Part shown: positions 9,822-16,422 of the stretch, in pieces | Layout: every line of letters starts with the position of its first letter | How positions within the stretch are numbered: position 1 is the first letter of the stretch | DNA from: Sandaracinus amylolyticus | GTDB lineage: Bacteria > Myxococcota_A > Polyangia > Polyangiales > Sandaracinaceae | Length of the DNA stretch: 64,000 nucleotides | Direction: 5' to 3' | NCBI RefSeq assembly: GCF_000737325.1 | Contig: NZ_CP011125.1 | Span: 2,976,001 to 3,040,000 of the forward strand | Translations under genes and position numbers: made by a program | The notes under the pieces: model-generated | Told to the model about the DNA's origin: nothing | The model's input: only the letters and a program-made list of their open reading frames with translations | The model's database searches: none

Positions 9822-11261
9822 TCAGGAACGGCGCGCGCGGATCGCGAGCGCGACGAGCGCGAGCAGGGCGACGAGCGCGGCCGACGGCGCGCGGCGCGGC
9901 GCGACACCGCACGCGCAGCCTTCGTCGCGCGCCGGGACGATCACCGGGCCCGCGTCGCGCGTCGTCGCGGCGTCGGTGGAGATCGATGCGTCGTCGCGCG
10001 CGGCGCCGCCGGCATCGCGCGGCGTGGTGCCGGCGTCGGGCGCGGGCGCGCACACGCCCTCGACGCACGTCTCGCCGCGCTCGCAGTTCACGACGCGGAG
10101 GCGCCCGCTCTCGCAGTCGGGATCGGGCGCGCCGCACGCGCAGTCGCAGTCGTCGAGCGCCGCGTACCAGCGGACCTCGCACGTCCACGCGTCGGGCACG
10201 ACGCGGCCGCAGTCGGCCTCGCACGTCGCGCTCTCGCCGCGATCGCACACGTCGTCTCCGCAGCGCGGCGCGTCGCAGTCGTCGGCGCACGTCTCGCTGG
10301 TCTCGGTGCCGCTGCAGAATCCGTCGCCGCACGTCGCGGCGCGGTCGCACAAGCGCGCGCTGGGCCAGCCGCTCGCGCAGAGGTCGTCGATCGCGTTCTG
10401 CGCGTAGCCGACGTACTCGCCGTGGCGCGTGCAGTCGCCGCCGGGGCACGCGTCGTCGAGCACGTTCACCACGCTGCAGTCGCCGCGGCGCACGTAGTCG
10501 TCCTCGCCGCCCGAGAGCACGCCGACGAGGCGGCCCTCCGCGTCGAGCACGCCGGAGCCCGAGTTGCCGCCGAACGCGTCGACGCTCGCGTAGAAGCGAT
10601 CGAGCACCTCGGCGCGCGCGTCGTTCACGTGCCCGCTCGCGTCGATCTTCATCGGGATCGTGTCCGGGTACCCGATCAGCACGAGCGGCTCGCCCGGCGT
10701 GAGCGCGCCGCGGCGCAGCGTGGCGGGCGTACGTCCCACCACCGGACGATCGAGCTGGATGATCGAGTGATCGCGCCACGGCGCGTCCTGGTCGCGATGC
10801 GCGACGAGGCGGCGACACGCGTACACGTCGTCCTCGCCGATCGTCTCGAGCACGCCGTCGCTCGCGTACGCGTAGTCGAAGACGAAGCGCAGCCCGCGGC
10901 ACTCCTCCTCGGTCTCCACGCAGTGCCCGGCCGTGAGGTACAGGTCGTCGTCGATCAGCGTGCCCGAGCACGATGCGGCGGTGGGCTGATCGAGGAAGCG
11001 CTGATCGTCGCAGAGGTCCTCGTCGCTCTGGAGGCGCCGGCCCGAGGGGACGATCGCGCTCGGGTCGCGCACGTCGAGGTTCTCGGGATCGAAGATCGCG
11101 GCCGAGCTCCCGAGCGCGAGCGCGCGCAGCGTCGCGTCGACCTCGTAGGCCTCGCGCCGGCCGTCCTCGCCGTAGACGACGGGCTCGGTGGCGAGCGATG
11201 GCTCGGGCACGCACGCGGCGAGGGCGAGCGCGGCTCCGAGGGCGATGCGGCGGTCGAGCAT
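9822..11261 (-). CDS. secreted trypsin-like serine protease with MYXO-CTERM tail
   Basis: 479 residues. N-terminal lipoprotein-like signal (lipobox LAAC near residue 17). Chymotrypsin-fold peptidase domain (about 70-300) with catalytic triad His113 (LTAGHC), Asp164 (RDHSIIQ) and Ser234 (GGNSGSG), all present. This is followed by two disulfide-rich repeats of the CGDGxC...C..DC type (about 300-350), a further Cys-rich segment, an Ala/Asp/Thr linker, and a C-terminal MYXO-CTERM signal: GCAC, a hydrophobic helix, then Arg residues. That tail marks proteins sorted to the myxobacterial cell surface. Having both a lipobox and MYXO-CTERM is notable. The substrate is unknown; a degradative or predatory role is inference. 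Confidence 0.9.
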   Translation of the reverse strand: MLDRRIALGAALALAACVPEPSLATEPVVYGEDGRREAYEVDATLRALALGSSAAIFDPENLDVRDPSAIVPSGRRLQSDEDLCDDQRFLDQPTAASCSGTLIDDDLYLTAGHCVETEEECRGLRFVFDYAYASDGVLETIGEDDVYACRRLVAHRDQDAPWRDHSIIQLDRPVVGRTPATLRRGALTPGEPLVLIGYPDTIPMKIDASGHVNDARAEVLDRFYASVDAFGGNSGSGVLDAEGRLVGVLSGGEDDYVRRGDCSVVNVLDDACPGGDCTRHGEYVGYAQNAIDDLCASGWPSARLCDRAATCGDGFCSGTETSETCADDCDAPRCGDDVCDRGESATCEADCGRVVPDAWTCEVRWYAALDDCDCACGAPDPDCESGRLRVVNCERGETCVEGVCAPAPDAGTTPRDAGGAARDDASISTDAATTRDAGPVIVPARDEGCACGVAPRRAPSAALVALLALVALAIRARRS

Positions 11262-11317
11262 GACCGCACGGCGTAGCACGTGCGCGGGCTCCGTATCGCG
11301 GGTACGCCGGCCTCGGA

Positions 11318-11323
11318 TATCCT
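11318..11323 (+). promoter_or_regulatory. candidate -10 hexamer TATCCT
   Basis: TATCCT lies 22 nt upstream of the ATG at 11346, leaving room for a short leader that includes the GAGAGGGG Shine-Dalgarno-like run. No convincing -35 is visible. Confidence 0.35.
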
Positions 11324-11345
11324 GACGGCAGAGAGGGGACACTGC

Positions 11346-11717
11346 ATGTTCGAGTTCGACTCCGGCGCCGTTCGAGATGCAGCGAAGGCCTACGAGAGCA
11401 TCCAGCTCCAGCCCGCGCAGGAAGCGCTCGTGAAGGATCTCGGGAACCTGGTCGGGCCGAAGATCGGGCTCGATCCGTTCCCGTGCCGCGGCTTCTGGCT
11501 CATGGCGGTGCGCGCGTGGCAGGTCGAGCACGCGACGACCGCCGACAGCATCGGCGCGATGCCGCCCGAGAAACGCGCCGCCGCCGCGCGCGAGATCGCG
11601 AAGCACTTCCGCGACATCGTCGGCAAGCAGCTGCGTGATCCGCGCGAGCAGTCGCGGCTCGATCGCGTGCTCGACGACGCGTTCGCGCACTACCTCGCTC
11701 GCTACAACAAGAGGTGA
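11346..11717 (+). CDS. conserved-looking helical protein of unknown function
   Basis: 123 residues, soluble and mostly alpha-helical, with one Cys in an FPCRGFW motif. No signal peptide or family is recognised. The ATG at 11346 is preceded by a purine-rich gagagggg sequence at suitable spacing; codons upstream in frame belong to the intergenic region. It lies 30 bp upstream of the ABC ATPase gene, but that gene appears to have its own TAGAAC hexamer, so co-transcription is uncertain. Confidence 0.65.
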   Translation: MFEFDSGAVRDAAKAYESIQLQPAQEALVKDLGNLVGPKIGLDPFPCRGFWLMAVRAWQVEHATTADSIGAMPPEKRAAAAREIAKHFRDIVGKQLRDPREQSRLDRVLDDAFAHYLARYNKR

Positions 11718-11747: not shown

Positions 11748-12647
11748 GTGGATCCCGACGTGATCGAGGTGCGCGGGCTGGCGAAGCGCTACGGCGCCGT
11801 CGAGGCGCTGCGCGGGCTGGATCTCACGGTGCGGCCCGGTGACGTCTACGGGTTCCTCGGACGCAACGGCGCGGGGAAGTCGACGACCATCCGGATCCTG
11901 ATGGGCATCACGCGGCCGAGCGGAGGCTCGGTGCGGATGTTCGGCGAGCCGGGCGGGCACGACCTCGTGTCGTGGCGACAGCGCATCGGGTACGTCGCGC
12001 AGGAGCAGTCGTTCTACGGCTGGATGACGCCCGTCTCGATCGCGCGGTTCGTGCGCGCGTTCTTCCCGCGGTGGGACGACGCCGAGTACACGCGCCTCTT
12101 GCGCGTGCTCGACGTGCCGAGCGCGCGACGCATCGGCACGTTCTCGGGCGGCACGAAGGTGAAGCTCGCGCTCGCGCTCGCCCTCGCGCACCGGCCGCCG
12201 CTCTTGCTGCTCGACGAGCCGACCGCGGGGCTCGATCCCGTCGCGCGGCGCGAGTTCCTCGAGATCGTGCGGCACGAGGCGGAGCACAGCGGGCGCACCA
12301 CGTTCTTCTCGAGCCACCTCGTCGACGAGATCGAGCTGGTCGCCAACCGCGTCGGCGTCGTCGACGAAGGCAGGACGCGCTACGAGGGCACCATCGACGA
12401 CCTCGTGCAGCGCGTGCGCGTCGTGCGCGCGAGCGAGCTCGCCGATCCCGCGCCGCTGCACGCGGCGATCGCGGAGCTTCAGCTCGCGGTGCGCCACGAG
12501 GAGGTGCGCGAGGGCGAGCGCCGCATCGTCGTCGAGAGCGACGATCCCGCGCGCTTCGATGCGCTCGCGCCGACGATCCCGGACGCGGTGATCGAGCTCC
12601 TGCCACTCGAAGAGGTGTTCATCGCGATGGTGCGGCGACGCGCATGA
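11748..12647 (+). CDS. ABC transporter ATP-binding protein
   Basis: 299 residues. Nucleotide-binding subunit: Walker A GRNGAGKST (38-46), Q-loop YVAQEQSF, signature FSGGTK (132-137), Walker B LLLLDEPTAGLDP (152-164) and switch His in SSHL. The C-terminal extension after about 215 is of the type seen in ABC-2 (DrrA/CcmA-like) exporters. It pairs with the two downstream permeases, whose genes overlap in ATGA and GTGA arrangements, so one transcript and one complex are expected. Start is GTG, without Shine-Dalgarno, with TAGAAC 9 nt upstream. The signature loop has T-K instead of Q-Q/R, a minor deviation. Confidence 0.95.
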   Translation: MDPDVIEVRGLAKRYGAVEALRGLDLTVRPGDVYGFLGRNGAGKSTTIRILMGITRPSGGSVRMFGEPGGHDLVSWRQRIGYVAQEQSFYGWMTPVSIARFVRAFFPRWDDAEYTRLLRVLDVPSARRIGTFSGGTKVKLALALALAHRPPLLLLDEPTAGLDPVARREFLEIVRHEAEHSGRTTFFSSHLVDEIELVANRVGVVDEGRTRYEGTIDDLVQRVRVVRASELADPAPLHAAIAELQLAVRHEEVREGERRIVVESDDPARFDALAPTIPDAVIELLPLEEVFIAMVRRRA

Positions 12648-14536
12648 AGCGCATCGCCGCGCTCGCGCTCAAGGACCTCGCGGAGCACGCGGTCGCGCTC
12701 GCGATGCTCGTGCTCTTCATGGGCGTCGCGTGGGCGCTGCTCTCGCTGATCGTCCTCGCGCAGCCCGCGACCGTGACGTACCTCGAGGTGCACGCCTCGC
12801 TGATGCGCTTCTTCCTGCCCGTCGCGGGGCTCGCGCTCGGCAATCGGCTCGTGGTCGCCGAGTACCACGGGCGCACCCAGCGCTTCCTCGAGTCGCTGCC
12901 GCTCGGGCGCGCCGACGTGATCCTCGTGAAGCTCGCGCTCGGCGTTCTCGTGATCGAGGCGCTCGCGCTCGGCTCGCTCGGCGCGACGCTCGTGCTCGCC
13001 ATCACGCGCGAAGCGATCGACGCGCGGTTCGTCGCGATCATCGCGGCGCGGACCGCGACGTACGCGCTCTTCGGCATGTGCTGGTTCACCGCGATGGGCA
13101 TGCTCGGCCGGCTGCGCGTGCCGCTCTACATCGCGATCGGCGTCGCGTTCGCGCTCGTCGCCAACGGGACCGAGCTCGAGGTGTCGCGCTTCGGGCCGAT
13201 CGCGCTGGTCGCCGACGACTTCGTGCTCGAGCGGACGCGCTGGCCGGTCGAGCCGCTGCTCGTGACGCTCGCGCTCGCGGCCGGATGGGCGCTCCTCGCC
13301 ATCGGGCTCGCGACGGTGCGCGAGGGATCGGTCGCGGAGACGCTCGCGAAGCGCATGAGCTTGCGCGAAGGCGTGACGCTCGTGATCGTGGTGATCGCGA
13401 TCCTGATCGCGTGGATGAGGCTCTCGCCGCCGAACCAGCGTCCGCCGTACGAGTGGGAGGACGGCGGCGTGCTGCGCGCCGGCGATGCGCCGATCGAGAT
13501 CATGTACGGCCTCGAGGACGCGCGACCCGATGCCGAGGCGCTCATGGCGCGCCTGAGGAGGGAGCTGCCGCCGCTGCGCGACGCGATGGGCTGGGCGCAG
13601 CTGCCGACGGTGCGCGTTGCGCTCTCGGAGCGGCTCGACGGGTCCACGTTCGAGCGCGTGACGCTCGGCGAGGACGACGGGATCCTCGTGCGCGCGAACT
13701 ATCGCCGCGGCCCGGAGTGGGACGAGGACGCGCTGCTCTCCGAGCTCGTCGGGCTCGTGATCGACGACGCGACCGGCGGGCGCGCGCTCTGGGAGCCGAT
13801 CGAGTGGCCGCGCGATGGGATCGCCGCGTGGTGGCCGCGTCGCGACGAGCCCGAGCTTCCGGAGACCATCGAGCTGCGCGCGCTGTGGGCGACGCGCGAG
13901 CGCGGGCCCGACGCGTCGCGGCTGCGCGCGTGGGATCGCACGATCCAGCGCGAGGGAGAGCGCGTCGCGGGCGCGCTCGCCGCGGTGGGCATCGACGTGC
14001 TCGAGGAGCAGCGCGGGCGCGACGCGGTCTTCGCGCTCGGGCGCGCGCTCTACGGGCACGAGCCGCCCGACGACTTCCGCGCGGTGGTGCACGGCTGGCT
14101 GCACCCGCTCTCGCGCACGCTGCGCGAGGCCGCGGGGATCGACGAGCGCGCGCTGATCGAGGCGTGGTACGCGCGCCTCGCGTCGCTGCGCGCGAGCCAT
14201 CGCGGCGCGTGGATGCCGCGCGTCGAGGCGCGGATCGACGTGGAGACCGCCGACGGGCTGCCGACCATCGTCGCGCGCGCGACGCTCGATCGTCCGCCGC
14301 CGCCTGGCGCGACCGTCTCGCTCGCGCACTTCGACGACGGGCCCTTCGACGACTTCGTGTGGCCGTGGGAGCCGCAGCGCGAGGAGCGCGCGTGGCCCGA
14401 CGGCGAGCGCTCGATCGAGATGCGCCTGCCCGGTCGCTACGGGCCGGGCTCGCGGGTGTGGGTCGCGCTCGATCTCGAGGGCACGCCGCTCGGCGCGCCG
14501 ATGCGCCTCGCGGAAGCGCGCGTGGAGGTGCCGTGA
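12644..14536 (+). CDS. ABC-2 permease fused to a peptidase-like domain lacking zinc ligands
   Basis: 630 residues. Residues 1-258 hold an ABC-2 type membrane domain with about six helices; residues 265-630 form a large soluble domain that should face outside the cytoplasm. The soluble part aligns by eye with the C-terminal domain of the next gene: similar strand pattern, an ELVGLVIDD segment where the partner has the AHESTH zinc motif, and RDGIAAWW where the partner has VEGSAEWV. So it looks like an inactive copy of a Peptidase_MA-type domain. The start overlaps the ATPase stop (ATGA). The role is unknown; an extracytoplasmic substrate-handling subunit of the exporter is inference. Confidence 0.85.
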   Translation: MKRIAALALKDLAEHAVALAMLVLFMGVAWALLSLIVLAQPATVTYLEVHASLMRFFLPVAGLALGNRLVVAEYHGRTQRFLESLPLGRADVILVKLALGVLVIEALALGSLGATLVLAITREAIDARFVAIIAARTATYALFGMCWFTAMGMLGRLRVPLYIAIGVAFALVANGTELEVSRFGPIALVADDFVLERTRWPVEPLLVTLALAAGWALLAIGLATVREGSVAETLAKRMSLREGVTLVIVVIAILIAWMRLSPPNQRPPYEWEDGGVLRAGDAPIEIMYGLEDARPDAEALMARLRRELPPLRDAMGWAQLPTVRVALSERLDGSTFERVTLGEDDGILVRANYRRGPEWDEDALLSELVGLVIDDATGGRALWEPIEWPRDGIAAWWPRRDEPELPETIELRALWATRERGPDASRLRAWDRTIQREGERVAGALAAVGIDVLEEQRGRDAVFALGRALYGHEPPDDFRAVVHGWLHPLSRTLREAAGIDERALIEAWYARLASLRASHRGAWMPRVEARIDVETADGLPTIVARATLDRPPPPGATVSLAHFDDGPFDDFVWPWEPQREERAWPDGERSIEMRLPGRYGPGSRVWVALDLEGTPLGAPMRLAEARVEVP

Positions 14537-16422
14537 TCGCGCTCTTGCGCAAGGAGCTGCGCGCGCTGGTGCCGCACGCGCTCCTCTGCTTCCTCGTGAT
14601 CAGCGGCGACGTGATCTCGCGGCCGCTCACCGAGCAGCTCGACATCCAGACGTGGTCGTCGATCTCCGCCGTCGATCCCGGAGAAGGCGGCGGGCTCGCG
14701 TTCATGCTCGCGCTGGTCGCGTTCTTCGTCGCCTACGCCGCGTTCCCGCGCGAGCACGACGACGGAACGATCGACTTCCTGCGCTCGCTGCCGGTGACGC
14801 GCCGCGCGATCTTCTCCGCGAAGATGCTCGCGGGCGCGGGCGTGCTCGTGCTCTTCACCGCGCTCGGCCAGGTGACGAACTGGCTGCTCCAGCTGCCGAA
14901 CCCGCAGAGCTTCAGCGGCGATCAGTTCCGGCTCGACGTCGCGCTCGGCGTGGCCGCGCTGCAGTCGACGTTCGTGCTCGTCCTCTACGCGCACGGCGTG
15001 CTCGCCTCGACGATGCGGCGCTTCGGGCTCCTGCCGTACGCGCTCGTCATGTTCGTGCTCCTCGCGGCGGAGGAGATCGAGCCCTCGCTCGCGTGGCTGA
15101 ACCCGGCGTCGATCTGCCGGCTCGCGTACCGGGGTCAGGTGCTGCTCGTGCCGTGGGGCGACATCGCGGTGCACGTGCCGATCGCGCTCGTCGCGCTCGG
15201 CATCTCGTACCTCGTGTGGATGGGGCCGTTCGAGCAGCTGCGCGACGCGCTCGCGCCGAAGCGCGACGGGCGCGCGGCGATCGCGTTCGGGTGCGGCACC
15301 GCGGTGGTCGTCTTCGTGGGGCTCGCGGTGATGACAGTGCTCGCGGTGCGCTCGGTGCAGGAGAACGGGCTGCCGAGCGACGAGCCCGAGGGCATCGACT
15401 GGCAGACCGCGGAGGCGCGCACCGAGCACTACGCGTTCGTGTACCCGACGAACCTGCGGGCGCGCGCGCTGCGCCTCGTGGGGAGCGCGGACGACATCGC
15501 GGAGTCGGTCGCGCGTGTGGTCGGTGCGCGCGAGGTGCCGTTCATCACGGTCGATCTCGCGGAGACGAGCGCGCACCACGAGGGCATCGCGGCGGGCACG
15601 CGCATCCGCATGGGGCTCGTCGGGCAGGACGACGACGCGCGACTGCGCCACGTGCTCGCGCACGAGAGCACGCACGTGCTGCAGGGGCGCGAGTCGGATC
15701 GGCGTCTGATGACGCAGCGCGGGACGCGCGCGTTCGTCGAGGGCTCGGCGGAGTGGGTCGCGTACCGGGTGGTGCCGAACGACGCGGCGCAGACCGAGTC
15801 GCGCATCGTCGCGGCCGCGGGATGGACGCGTCATCGGCTGCAGCTCGAGGACGTGCTCGACGACGAGTCGCTGCGGCAGCGCTTCGACACGTCGCTCGCG
15901 TACTCGCTCGGCGAGGTGCTCACCGAGGGCATCGCGCGCGCGTGCGGCGAGCGCGCGGTCGGCGACGTGATGCGCGCGATCGGGCGGAGCGACGCGCCGC
16001 AGGATCTCGAGCCGCTCGCGCTGTGGCAGGACGCGCTGCAGTCGATCGGGTGCAGCGAGGTCGCGGCGCGCGCGCAGATGGAGCGGGTGATCGACGACGT
16101 CGCGCGCGATCACGCGGACGCGATCGCGGCGCTGCCGCGCGCGGGCGCGGCGGTGACGGGGCGCGACGAGGAGACGACGACGGTGGTCGCGACGCTCGAT
16201 CGCGACGCGCCCGAAGGCGCGACGTGGACGCTGCGGGTGCGGCGCGATCGGATGGTGAGCGACACCGAGATCCGATCGGTGCGCGGAGTGGTCGACGCGG
16301 CGCGTCGGCGGGTGACGTTCCTCGTGCCGAGGGGGTGGAGCTGGCCTCGGTTCGATCTGCAGGTCTGTATGGTTCCCGTTGGCGGGAACTGGTCTTGGTG
16401 TGAAGGGTGGACGTCGGGATAG
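14533..16422 (+). CDS. ABC-2 permease fused to a gluzincin metallopeptidase domain
   Basis: 629 residues from a GTG at 14533 overlapping the previous stop (GTGA), with GGAGGTG just upstream. Membrane domain about 15-275 (roughly six to seven helices). The C-terminal extracytoplasmic domain has a complete zinc motif HESTH (His377, Glu378, His381) and a third-ligand candidate Glu403 in VEGSAEW, the arrangement of Peptidase_MA_2 gluzincins. A final beta-rich segment (about 530-629) ends with paired Cys and Trp residues. It is paralogous to the preceding gene. The pair suggests an exporter whose permease subunits each carry a peptidase-like domain, one active and one degenerate. Its substrate is unknown. 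Confidence 0.88.
   Translation: MIALLRKELRALVPHALLCFLVISGDVISRPLTEQLDIQTWSSISAVDPGEGGGLAFMLALVAFFVAYAAFPREHDDGTIDFLRSLPVTRRAIFSAKMLAGAGVLVLFTALGQVTNWLLQLPNPQSFSGDQFRLDVALGVAALQSTFVLVLYAHGVLASTMRRFGLLPYALVMFVLLAAEEIEPSLAWLNPASICRLAYRGQVLLVPWGDIAVHVPIALVALGISYLVWMGPFEQLRDALAPKRDGRAAIAFGCGTAVVVFVGLAVMTVLAVRSVQENGLPSDEPEGIDWQTAEARTEHYAFVYPTNLRARALRLVGSADDIAESVARVVGAREVPFITVDLAETSAHHEGIAAGTRIRMGLVGQDDDARLRHVLAHESTHVLQGRESDRRLMTQRGTRAFVEGSAEWVAYRVVPNDAAQTESRIVAAAGWTRHRLQLEDVLDDESLRQRFDTSLAYSLGEVLTEGIARACGERAVGDVMRAIGRSDAPQDLEPLALWQDALQSIGCSEVAARAQMERVIDDVARDHADAIAALPRAGAAVTGRDEETTTVVATLDRDAPEGATWTLRVRRDRMVSDTEIRSVRGVVDAARRRVTFLVPRGWSWPRFDLQVCMVPVGGNWSWCEGWTSG

Follow-up and report, generated by a model that had tools for sequence, protein, structure and literature searches.

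Predicted active and degenerate gluzincin domains on the two permeases of a putative ABC-2 exporter from Sandaracinus amylolyticus

Why should a transporter carry a peptidase-like domain on each of its two permeases when only one of them retains a recognizable active site? This question is raised by three consecutive genes in the window (the whole stretch of DNA analyzed, 64,000 nucleotides), which encode an ABC ATPase and two permeases, here called P1 and P2, each ending in a large soluble domain (Table 1). The genome around the window is one contig of 10.3 Mb, and the relatives from its family are Sandaracinaceae MAGs (Myxococcota). The genes overlap by 4 bp at both junctions (ATGA between the ATPase and P1, GTGA between P1 and P2), and the trio is common to 37 loci, which bears out the proposal of the earlier note that the ATPase and the two permeases form a single ABC-2 transporter unit. 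The ATPase possesses a complete set of motifs, namely Walker A (GRNGAGKS, residue 38), the signature (FSGG, 132), Walker B (LLLLDEP, 152), and the H-loop (SSH, 188). Together with the ABC2_membrane domain in P2, these intact motifs identify the products of the three genes as a predicted ABC-2 type transporter.

Table 1. Positions in the window of the ATPase, P1, and P2 genes and of the domains and motifs discussed in the text
Feature	Position	Strand	Evidence
ABC ATPase gene, 299 aa	11748..12647	+	PF00005, 96.5 bits; motifs; adjoins P1-P2 in relatives
P1, ABC-2 permease half with predicted C-terminal pseudo-peptidase domain, 630 aa	12644..14536	+	
P1 residues 1-261, membrane part with seven hydrophobic segments and the EYxGRTQxFLExLP coupling region	12644..13426	+	Weak match to NosY (7o0y)
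P1 soluble domain, residues 262-630, predicted gluzincin fold and C-terminal β-sandwich, without zinc ligands	13427..14533	+	AF2 pLDDT 92.4; VIA matches to M1/M9 peptidases, Z 11-13
P1 LVIDD, from residue 371, in the helix opposite HExxH	13754..13768	+	
P1 RDGIAAW, from residue 390 (Asp391-Gly392), opposite P2 Glu403-Gly404	13811..13831	+	Many P1 relatives have WxxDG
P2, ABC-2 permease half, 629 aa, GTG start, predicted gluzincin domain at the C terminus	14533..16422	+	PF12679, 35.2 bits (cut-off 27.2)
P2 residues 1-282, membrane part with seven hydrophobic segments	14533..15378	+	
P2 soluble domain, residues 283-629, predicted gluzincin fold and C-terminal β-sandwich	15379..16419	+	AF2 pLDDT 93.9; Foldseek and VIA matches to M1, LTA4H, M30
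P2 HESTH, predicted zinc-binding and catalytic motif, residues 377-381	15661..15675	+	Conserved in 38/38 P2
P2 Glu403, predicted third zinc ligand	15739..15741	+	Invariant in alignment A4
P2 Tyr457, candidate transition-state Tyr	15901..15903	+	Invariant in alignment A4 and in added relatives

The membrane part of P2 exceeds the Pfam cut-offs for ABC2_membrane_2 (PF12679) and ABC2_membrane_4 (PF12730; 34.3 against 27.0), and P1 scores 16.9 with PF12679, under the cut-off. A P1 profile matches the membrane part of adjoining P2 genes with E values down to 3.5e-25, and full-length P1 and P2 align by hhalign with an E value of 1.2e-13, indicating that P1 is a paralogue of P2. The hydrophobic segments are clear in P2, and their peaks are partly split in P1. 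The loops of both permeases obey the positive-inside rule, with positive charges in the loop preceding the first segment and in that linking segments 6 and 7. Moreover, Cys-471 and Cys-507 of P2 occur together or are missing together in 29 of 30 sequences, the pattern expected of a disulfide, and L063, a relative of the P2 domain that stands alone, starts with a signal-like segment. Because of these features, both soluble domains are predicted to sit outside the inner membrane, in agreement with the extracytoplasmic placement suggested earlier. Their length had been given as over 350 residues, which applies to P1 (∼369 residues); the P2 domain has 347.

The P2 domain carries the full gluzincin site that the earlier note had described, His-377, Glu-378, His-381, and Glu-403, at exactly these positions. 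Tyr-457 is a further invariant residue, and its spacing from HExxH resembles that of the catalytic tyrosine of M1 and M30 enzymes, from which we assume a similar role. The AF2 model of P2 was matched by VIA to M1 aminopeptidases, LTA4 hydrolase, and the M30 peptidase lugdulysin (Z of ∼14, 217–224 residues, 3.5–4.4 Å). The M1 and LTA4 hydrolase structures (PDB codes 2gtq, 3fum, and 3cia) share with P2 the gluzincin fold, HExxH with a distal Glu, and a similarly spaced Tyr, and align over 217–220 residues at 3.5–3.6 Å with a Z of ∼14. Lugdulysin (PDB code 7bb8) forms the top row (Z of 14.2, 224 residues, 4.4 Å) but is a stand-alone enzyme with 12% identity to P2, not fused to a transporter. As to clan MA(E), its thermolysin-like fold was recovered with Z values up to 14.2 for P2 and 13.0 for P1, the top rows being almost all M1, M30, and M9 gluzincins, and its motif of HExxH plus a distal Glu is conserved in every P2. 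The P2 domain is most likely a working zinc peptidase. Alternatively, both soluble domains could serve as structural lids or docking platforms only, the zinc site of P2 being unused for proteolysis. P1 shows that the fold can be retained without the site, but His-377, Glu-378, His-381, Glu-403, and Tyr-457 are invariant in P2 although the mean identity between loci is 28%, and we regard this reading as highly improbable.

P2 is a gluzincin by these features and is not, as judged from its sequence, a member of family M1. The M1 family model (PF01433) gives no match to P2 at E values up to 1, and among 21 relatives it gives one below-cut-off match (best E of 0.0012). The GAMEN (GxMEN) motif upstream of HExxH is absent in P2, and a single unconserved GAAEN was found in one scanned relative. 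The label “aminopeptidase” is therefore unwarranted for P2. P2 further differs from M1 enzymes in its fusion to an ABC-2 permease and in lacking their N-terminal domain. Among the other families scanned, M9 (PF01752) matches the P2 domain with an E value of 0.0057, under the cut-off, and a C39 cysteine peptidase domain is absent from the ATPase, P1, and P2. ABC-2 permeases fused to gluzincin peptidases occur in RefSeq naming as “ABC transporter permease/M1 family aminopeptidase”; by name only, they resemble P2 as permease–gluzincin fusions, whereas P2 is not M1 by sequence. The M1 genes elsewhere in the same genome, considered as comparable fusions, encode ordinary soluble or secreted M1 enzymes with no ABC fusion.

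The soluble domain of P1 is homologous to that of P2. Profile–profile comparison of the two yields an E value of 8.2e-9 and a probability of 95.8, and the score of 54.9 exceeds both the 13.3 of the reversed profile and the maximum of 22.3 obtained from 60 column shuffles. In the AF2 models, the two domains show a near-identical order of elements, a gluzincin-like α/β part followed by the β-sandwich. Both models thus display one fold, which answers the AlphaFold check set by the earlier note and upholds its reading of two paralogous domains, one active-looking and one degenerate. Should the HExxH of P2 be accidental, or the likeness between P1 and P2 spurious, the pair would be an artefact. Neither soluble domain is covered by any Pfam family above cut-off, which would suit such a view; yet it is contradicted by the shuffled and reversed controls, the fold matches, and conservation in three phyla, and we consider it next to inconceivable. 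Foldseek also listed Brr2 and Kir channels as fold relatives of P1, but with low TM-scores that we dismiss as noise, VIA ranking gluzincins at the top. One VIA row for P1, 7edx_B (in TFIID), is presumably TAF2, a catalytically dead M1-like protein.

P1 has no counterparts of P2 His-377, Glu-378, His-381, Glu-403, and Tyr-457. LVIDD and RDGIAAW had been proposed to occupy the aligned positions. Both motifs are indeed present there, although the residues opposite HExxH are uncertain by a few positions: hhalign pairs P2 Glu403-Gly404 with P1 Asp391-Gly392 and the HExxH helix with P1 residues 361–376, with a gap inside the helix that is uncertainly placed. Sequence and model together describe the P1 domain as a predicted pseudo-peptidase with the fold retained.

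Is this pairing particular to the window? An alignment scan of ∼85,000 species found relatives in Acidobacteriota, Granulosicoccaceae, Massilia, and Myxococcaceae, whereas a plain P2 scan of genome contigs had returned zero. Wherever the contig permitted, the alignment-scan relatives comprise ATPase, P1, and P2, the stand-alone L063 excepted. The scan used two patterns, one of which contained HExxH, and its finds are unusable as proof of conservation; because such a pattern biases toward the motif, the search was repeated with P1. The P1 profile revealed six further loci in the phylum, in a second Myxococcota family. P2 sequences with HELxH in that family and Massilia P2 sequences with HETVH lie outside the scan pattern. 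In total, the 37 loci with the trio belong to Myxococcota, Acidobacteriota, Gammaproteobacteria, and Massilia. HExxH, Glu, and Tyr are intact in 38/38 P2 sequences read, 22 of which were located via the P1 profile, the P1 protein, or whole P2 and hence without motif bias. HExxH occurs in 0/37 P1 sequences. The random scatter of zinc ligands that would have refuted the earlier note is thus not seen. The earlier note had called for other genomes with the same two fusions, and the pairing is found in every locus with both genes readable. The combination of an active-looking and a degenerate domain is, on these sequences, a fixed trait of the family and not a local accident.

A joint tree resolves P1 and P2 as one clade each (SH-aLRT of 100). 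Pairwise distances of P1 and P2 across 28 loci correlate with r = 0.935 (permuted maximum of 0.24), and mean identity is 28% in both. With the tree rooted by midpoint only, a single old duplication followed by a single loss of the site in P1 would explain the data, since each permease falls into a clade of its own and the distances of the two match. The correlated distances and equal identities also indicate that the dead copy drifts no faster than the active one; active and dead copies match one-to-one, accompany each other throughout, and evolve at equal rates. The P1 soluble domain is under purifying selection, with a dN/dS between two congeners of 0.21 (0.16 for the P2 domain). Because the pairing is kept in three phyla, the dead copy probably serves some function. 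Near the lost site (P1 residues 380–392, window 13781–13819), Arg-380 and Trp-388 are invariant among P1 sequences and Glu-384 and Gly-392 nearly so. As P1 has these invariant residues of its own, the region of the pseudo-site may have a new binding role.

What, then, could the pair do on a transporter? We put at about an even chance the view that the trio is an ABC-2 exporter with the active/pseudo-gluzincin pair at its exit, where an exported peptide is trimmed or gated. P1 and P2 would be the two membrane halves of a heterodimer, the ATPase presumably acting as a dimer, and the two paralogous gluzincin-fold domains would be displayed on the outer face of the inner membrane. The ATPase would push its cargo, a small protein or peptide, across the interface of P1 and P2. 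The soluble domains, each attached to its half immediately behind membrane segment 7, are assumed to pair above the exit, where the emerging substrate would be cut by P2. P1 might hold or orient the substrate or, alternatively, keep P2 inactive until the transporter state is right. In this scheme we infer peptidase activity, the heterodimer, a peptide substrate, and the coupling to transport. The M16 two-half peptidases of the mitochondrial processing peptidase type provide a precedent, because they combine an active half that holds the site with an inactive half, and both are needed (PMC12731061). The likeness is functional only, for M16 enzymes have another fold and are no relatives of P2, and their inverted HxxEH motif is absent from P2, whose motif is HExxH. 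A wider proposal is more tentative, at slightly under an even chance: the trio would represent an undescribed ABC-2 exporter family with an obligate active/pseudo-gluzincin heterodimer and ATP-coupled processing. The dead copy would be indispensable, and the arrangement would predate the spread of the family over at least three phyla.

The main alternative is an ATP-gated peptidase without transport. In such a mechanotransmission system, like FtsEX or NosDFY, ATP cycles would respace the soluble domains and switch P2 against an envelope substrate. NosY (NosDFY, PDB code 7o0y), an ABC-2 permease like P1 and P2, is the nearest solved permease by sequence, with a weak E value of 0.0073 for the P1 profile; PDB sequence searches with P1 and P2 gave only this weak match, for the membrane parts. 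NosY (276 aa) carries no fused peptidase domain, whereas P1 and P2 carry one each. By the prevailing view, the NosY system acts on a periplasmic partner instead of exporting a peptide, and its place as closest solved permease, however weak, counts against the export model. ATP gating is also favored by the rigid soluble domain that ends each half right after the last membrane segment, by the pseudo-partner, a natural regulator, and by the neighborhood, as no substrate or cargo gene was found beside the trio. On the other hand, no partner substrate was found either, and the usual ABC-2 features of the membrane parts fit export equally well. We assign this alternative a low but appreciable probability.

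Among the loci compared, the trio has no conserved neighbors beyond close relatives. The 145-amino acid ORF directly upstream of the ATPase (11280-11717, + strand) was considered as a partner and rejected, since it stands beside the unit only in two congeners and elsewhere in genome G002; it has no Pfam match. Further upstream on the − strand (∼9822-11246), the window encodes a secreted trypsin-like protein, the C terminus of which resembles a MYXO-CTERM type sorting tail with a Cys-rich stretch, a hydrophobic segment, and an RARRS end.

The distribution of the trio bears on a third possibility, a defense or detoxification module in which membrane-active peptides would be expelled and then degraded outside by P2. 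The three-gene unit is self-contained, and its occurrence is patchy, comprising 11/62 genomes in a P1 search of the genus Massilia, few Myxococcota families, and Acidobacteriota. In the family of the window, however, both permeases are adjacent in 9/10 genomes, where the unit appears housekeeping-like. Furthermore, plasmids and phages searched for trio relatives gave zero matches, and no peptide biosynthesis or resistance genes were seen linked. Such a module therefore seems improbable.

If the preferred reading of a processing exporter is true, a zinc peptidase paired with a pseudo-enzyme paralogue on the two halves of an ABC-2 transporter would represent another coupling of ATP-driven export to maturation, and the family offers a clean natural system for asking what a pseudo-peptidase does. 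In most known ABC exporters that bear a peptidase, this is a cysteine peptidase in the cytosol, as in PCAT, an exporter with a built-in C39 peptidase that may trim its cargo. PCAT is a one-chain exporter with this domain at the N terminus, whereas the present unit is an ABC-2 pair with a predicted zinc peptidase outside and a pseudo-copy. A literature search of partial coverage, no proof of novelty, returned nothing on ABC-2/metallopeptidase fusions, including the M1 fusions with which the earlier note had compared the unit, and no experimental report on any member of the P1/P2 family.

Three genomes depart from the common arrangement. In one (G573, contig C579), the only locus seen with P1 and P2 not adjacent, two apparently secreted-protein genes lie between them (L095 4637-6109; L094:3745-4818), one encoding a lipoprotein with thrombospondin type 3 repeats; these genes may encode cargo or, alternatively, represent an insertion. 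In a Massilia genome (G636, contig C1, L113), frameshifts break both P1 and P2, reflecting either a decaying copy or sequence errors. Finally, MAG SJ496 (G595) encodes the stand-alone relative of the P2 domain (L063:5917-7686), which has a signal-like start, retains HETAH, and ends in a tail of Sel1 repeats. The same MAG also holds a full trio (L060), the P2 of which has a similar tail.
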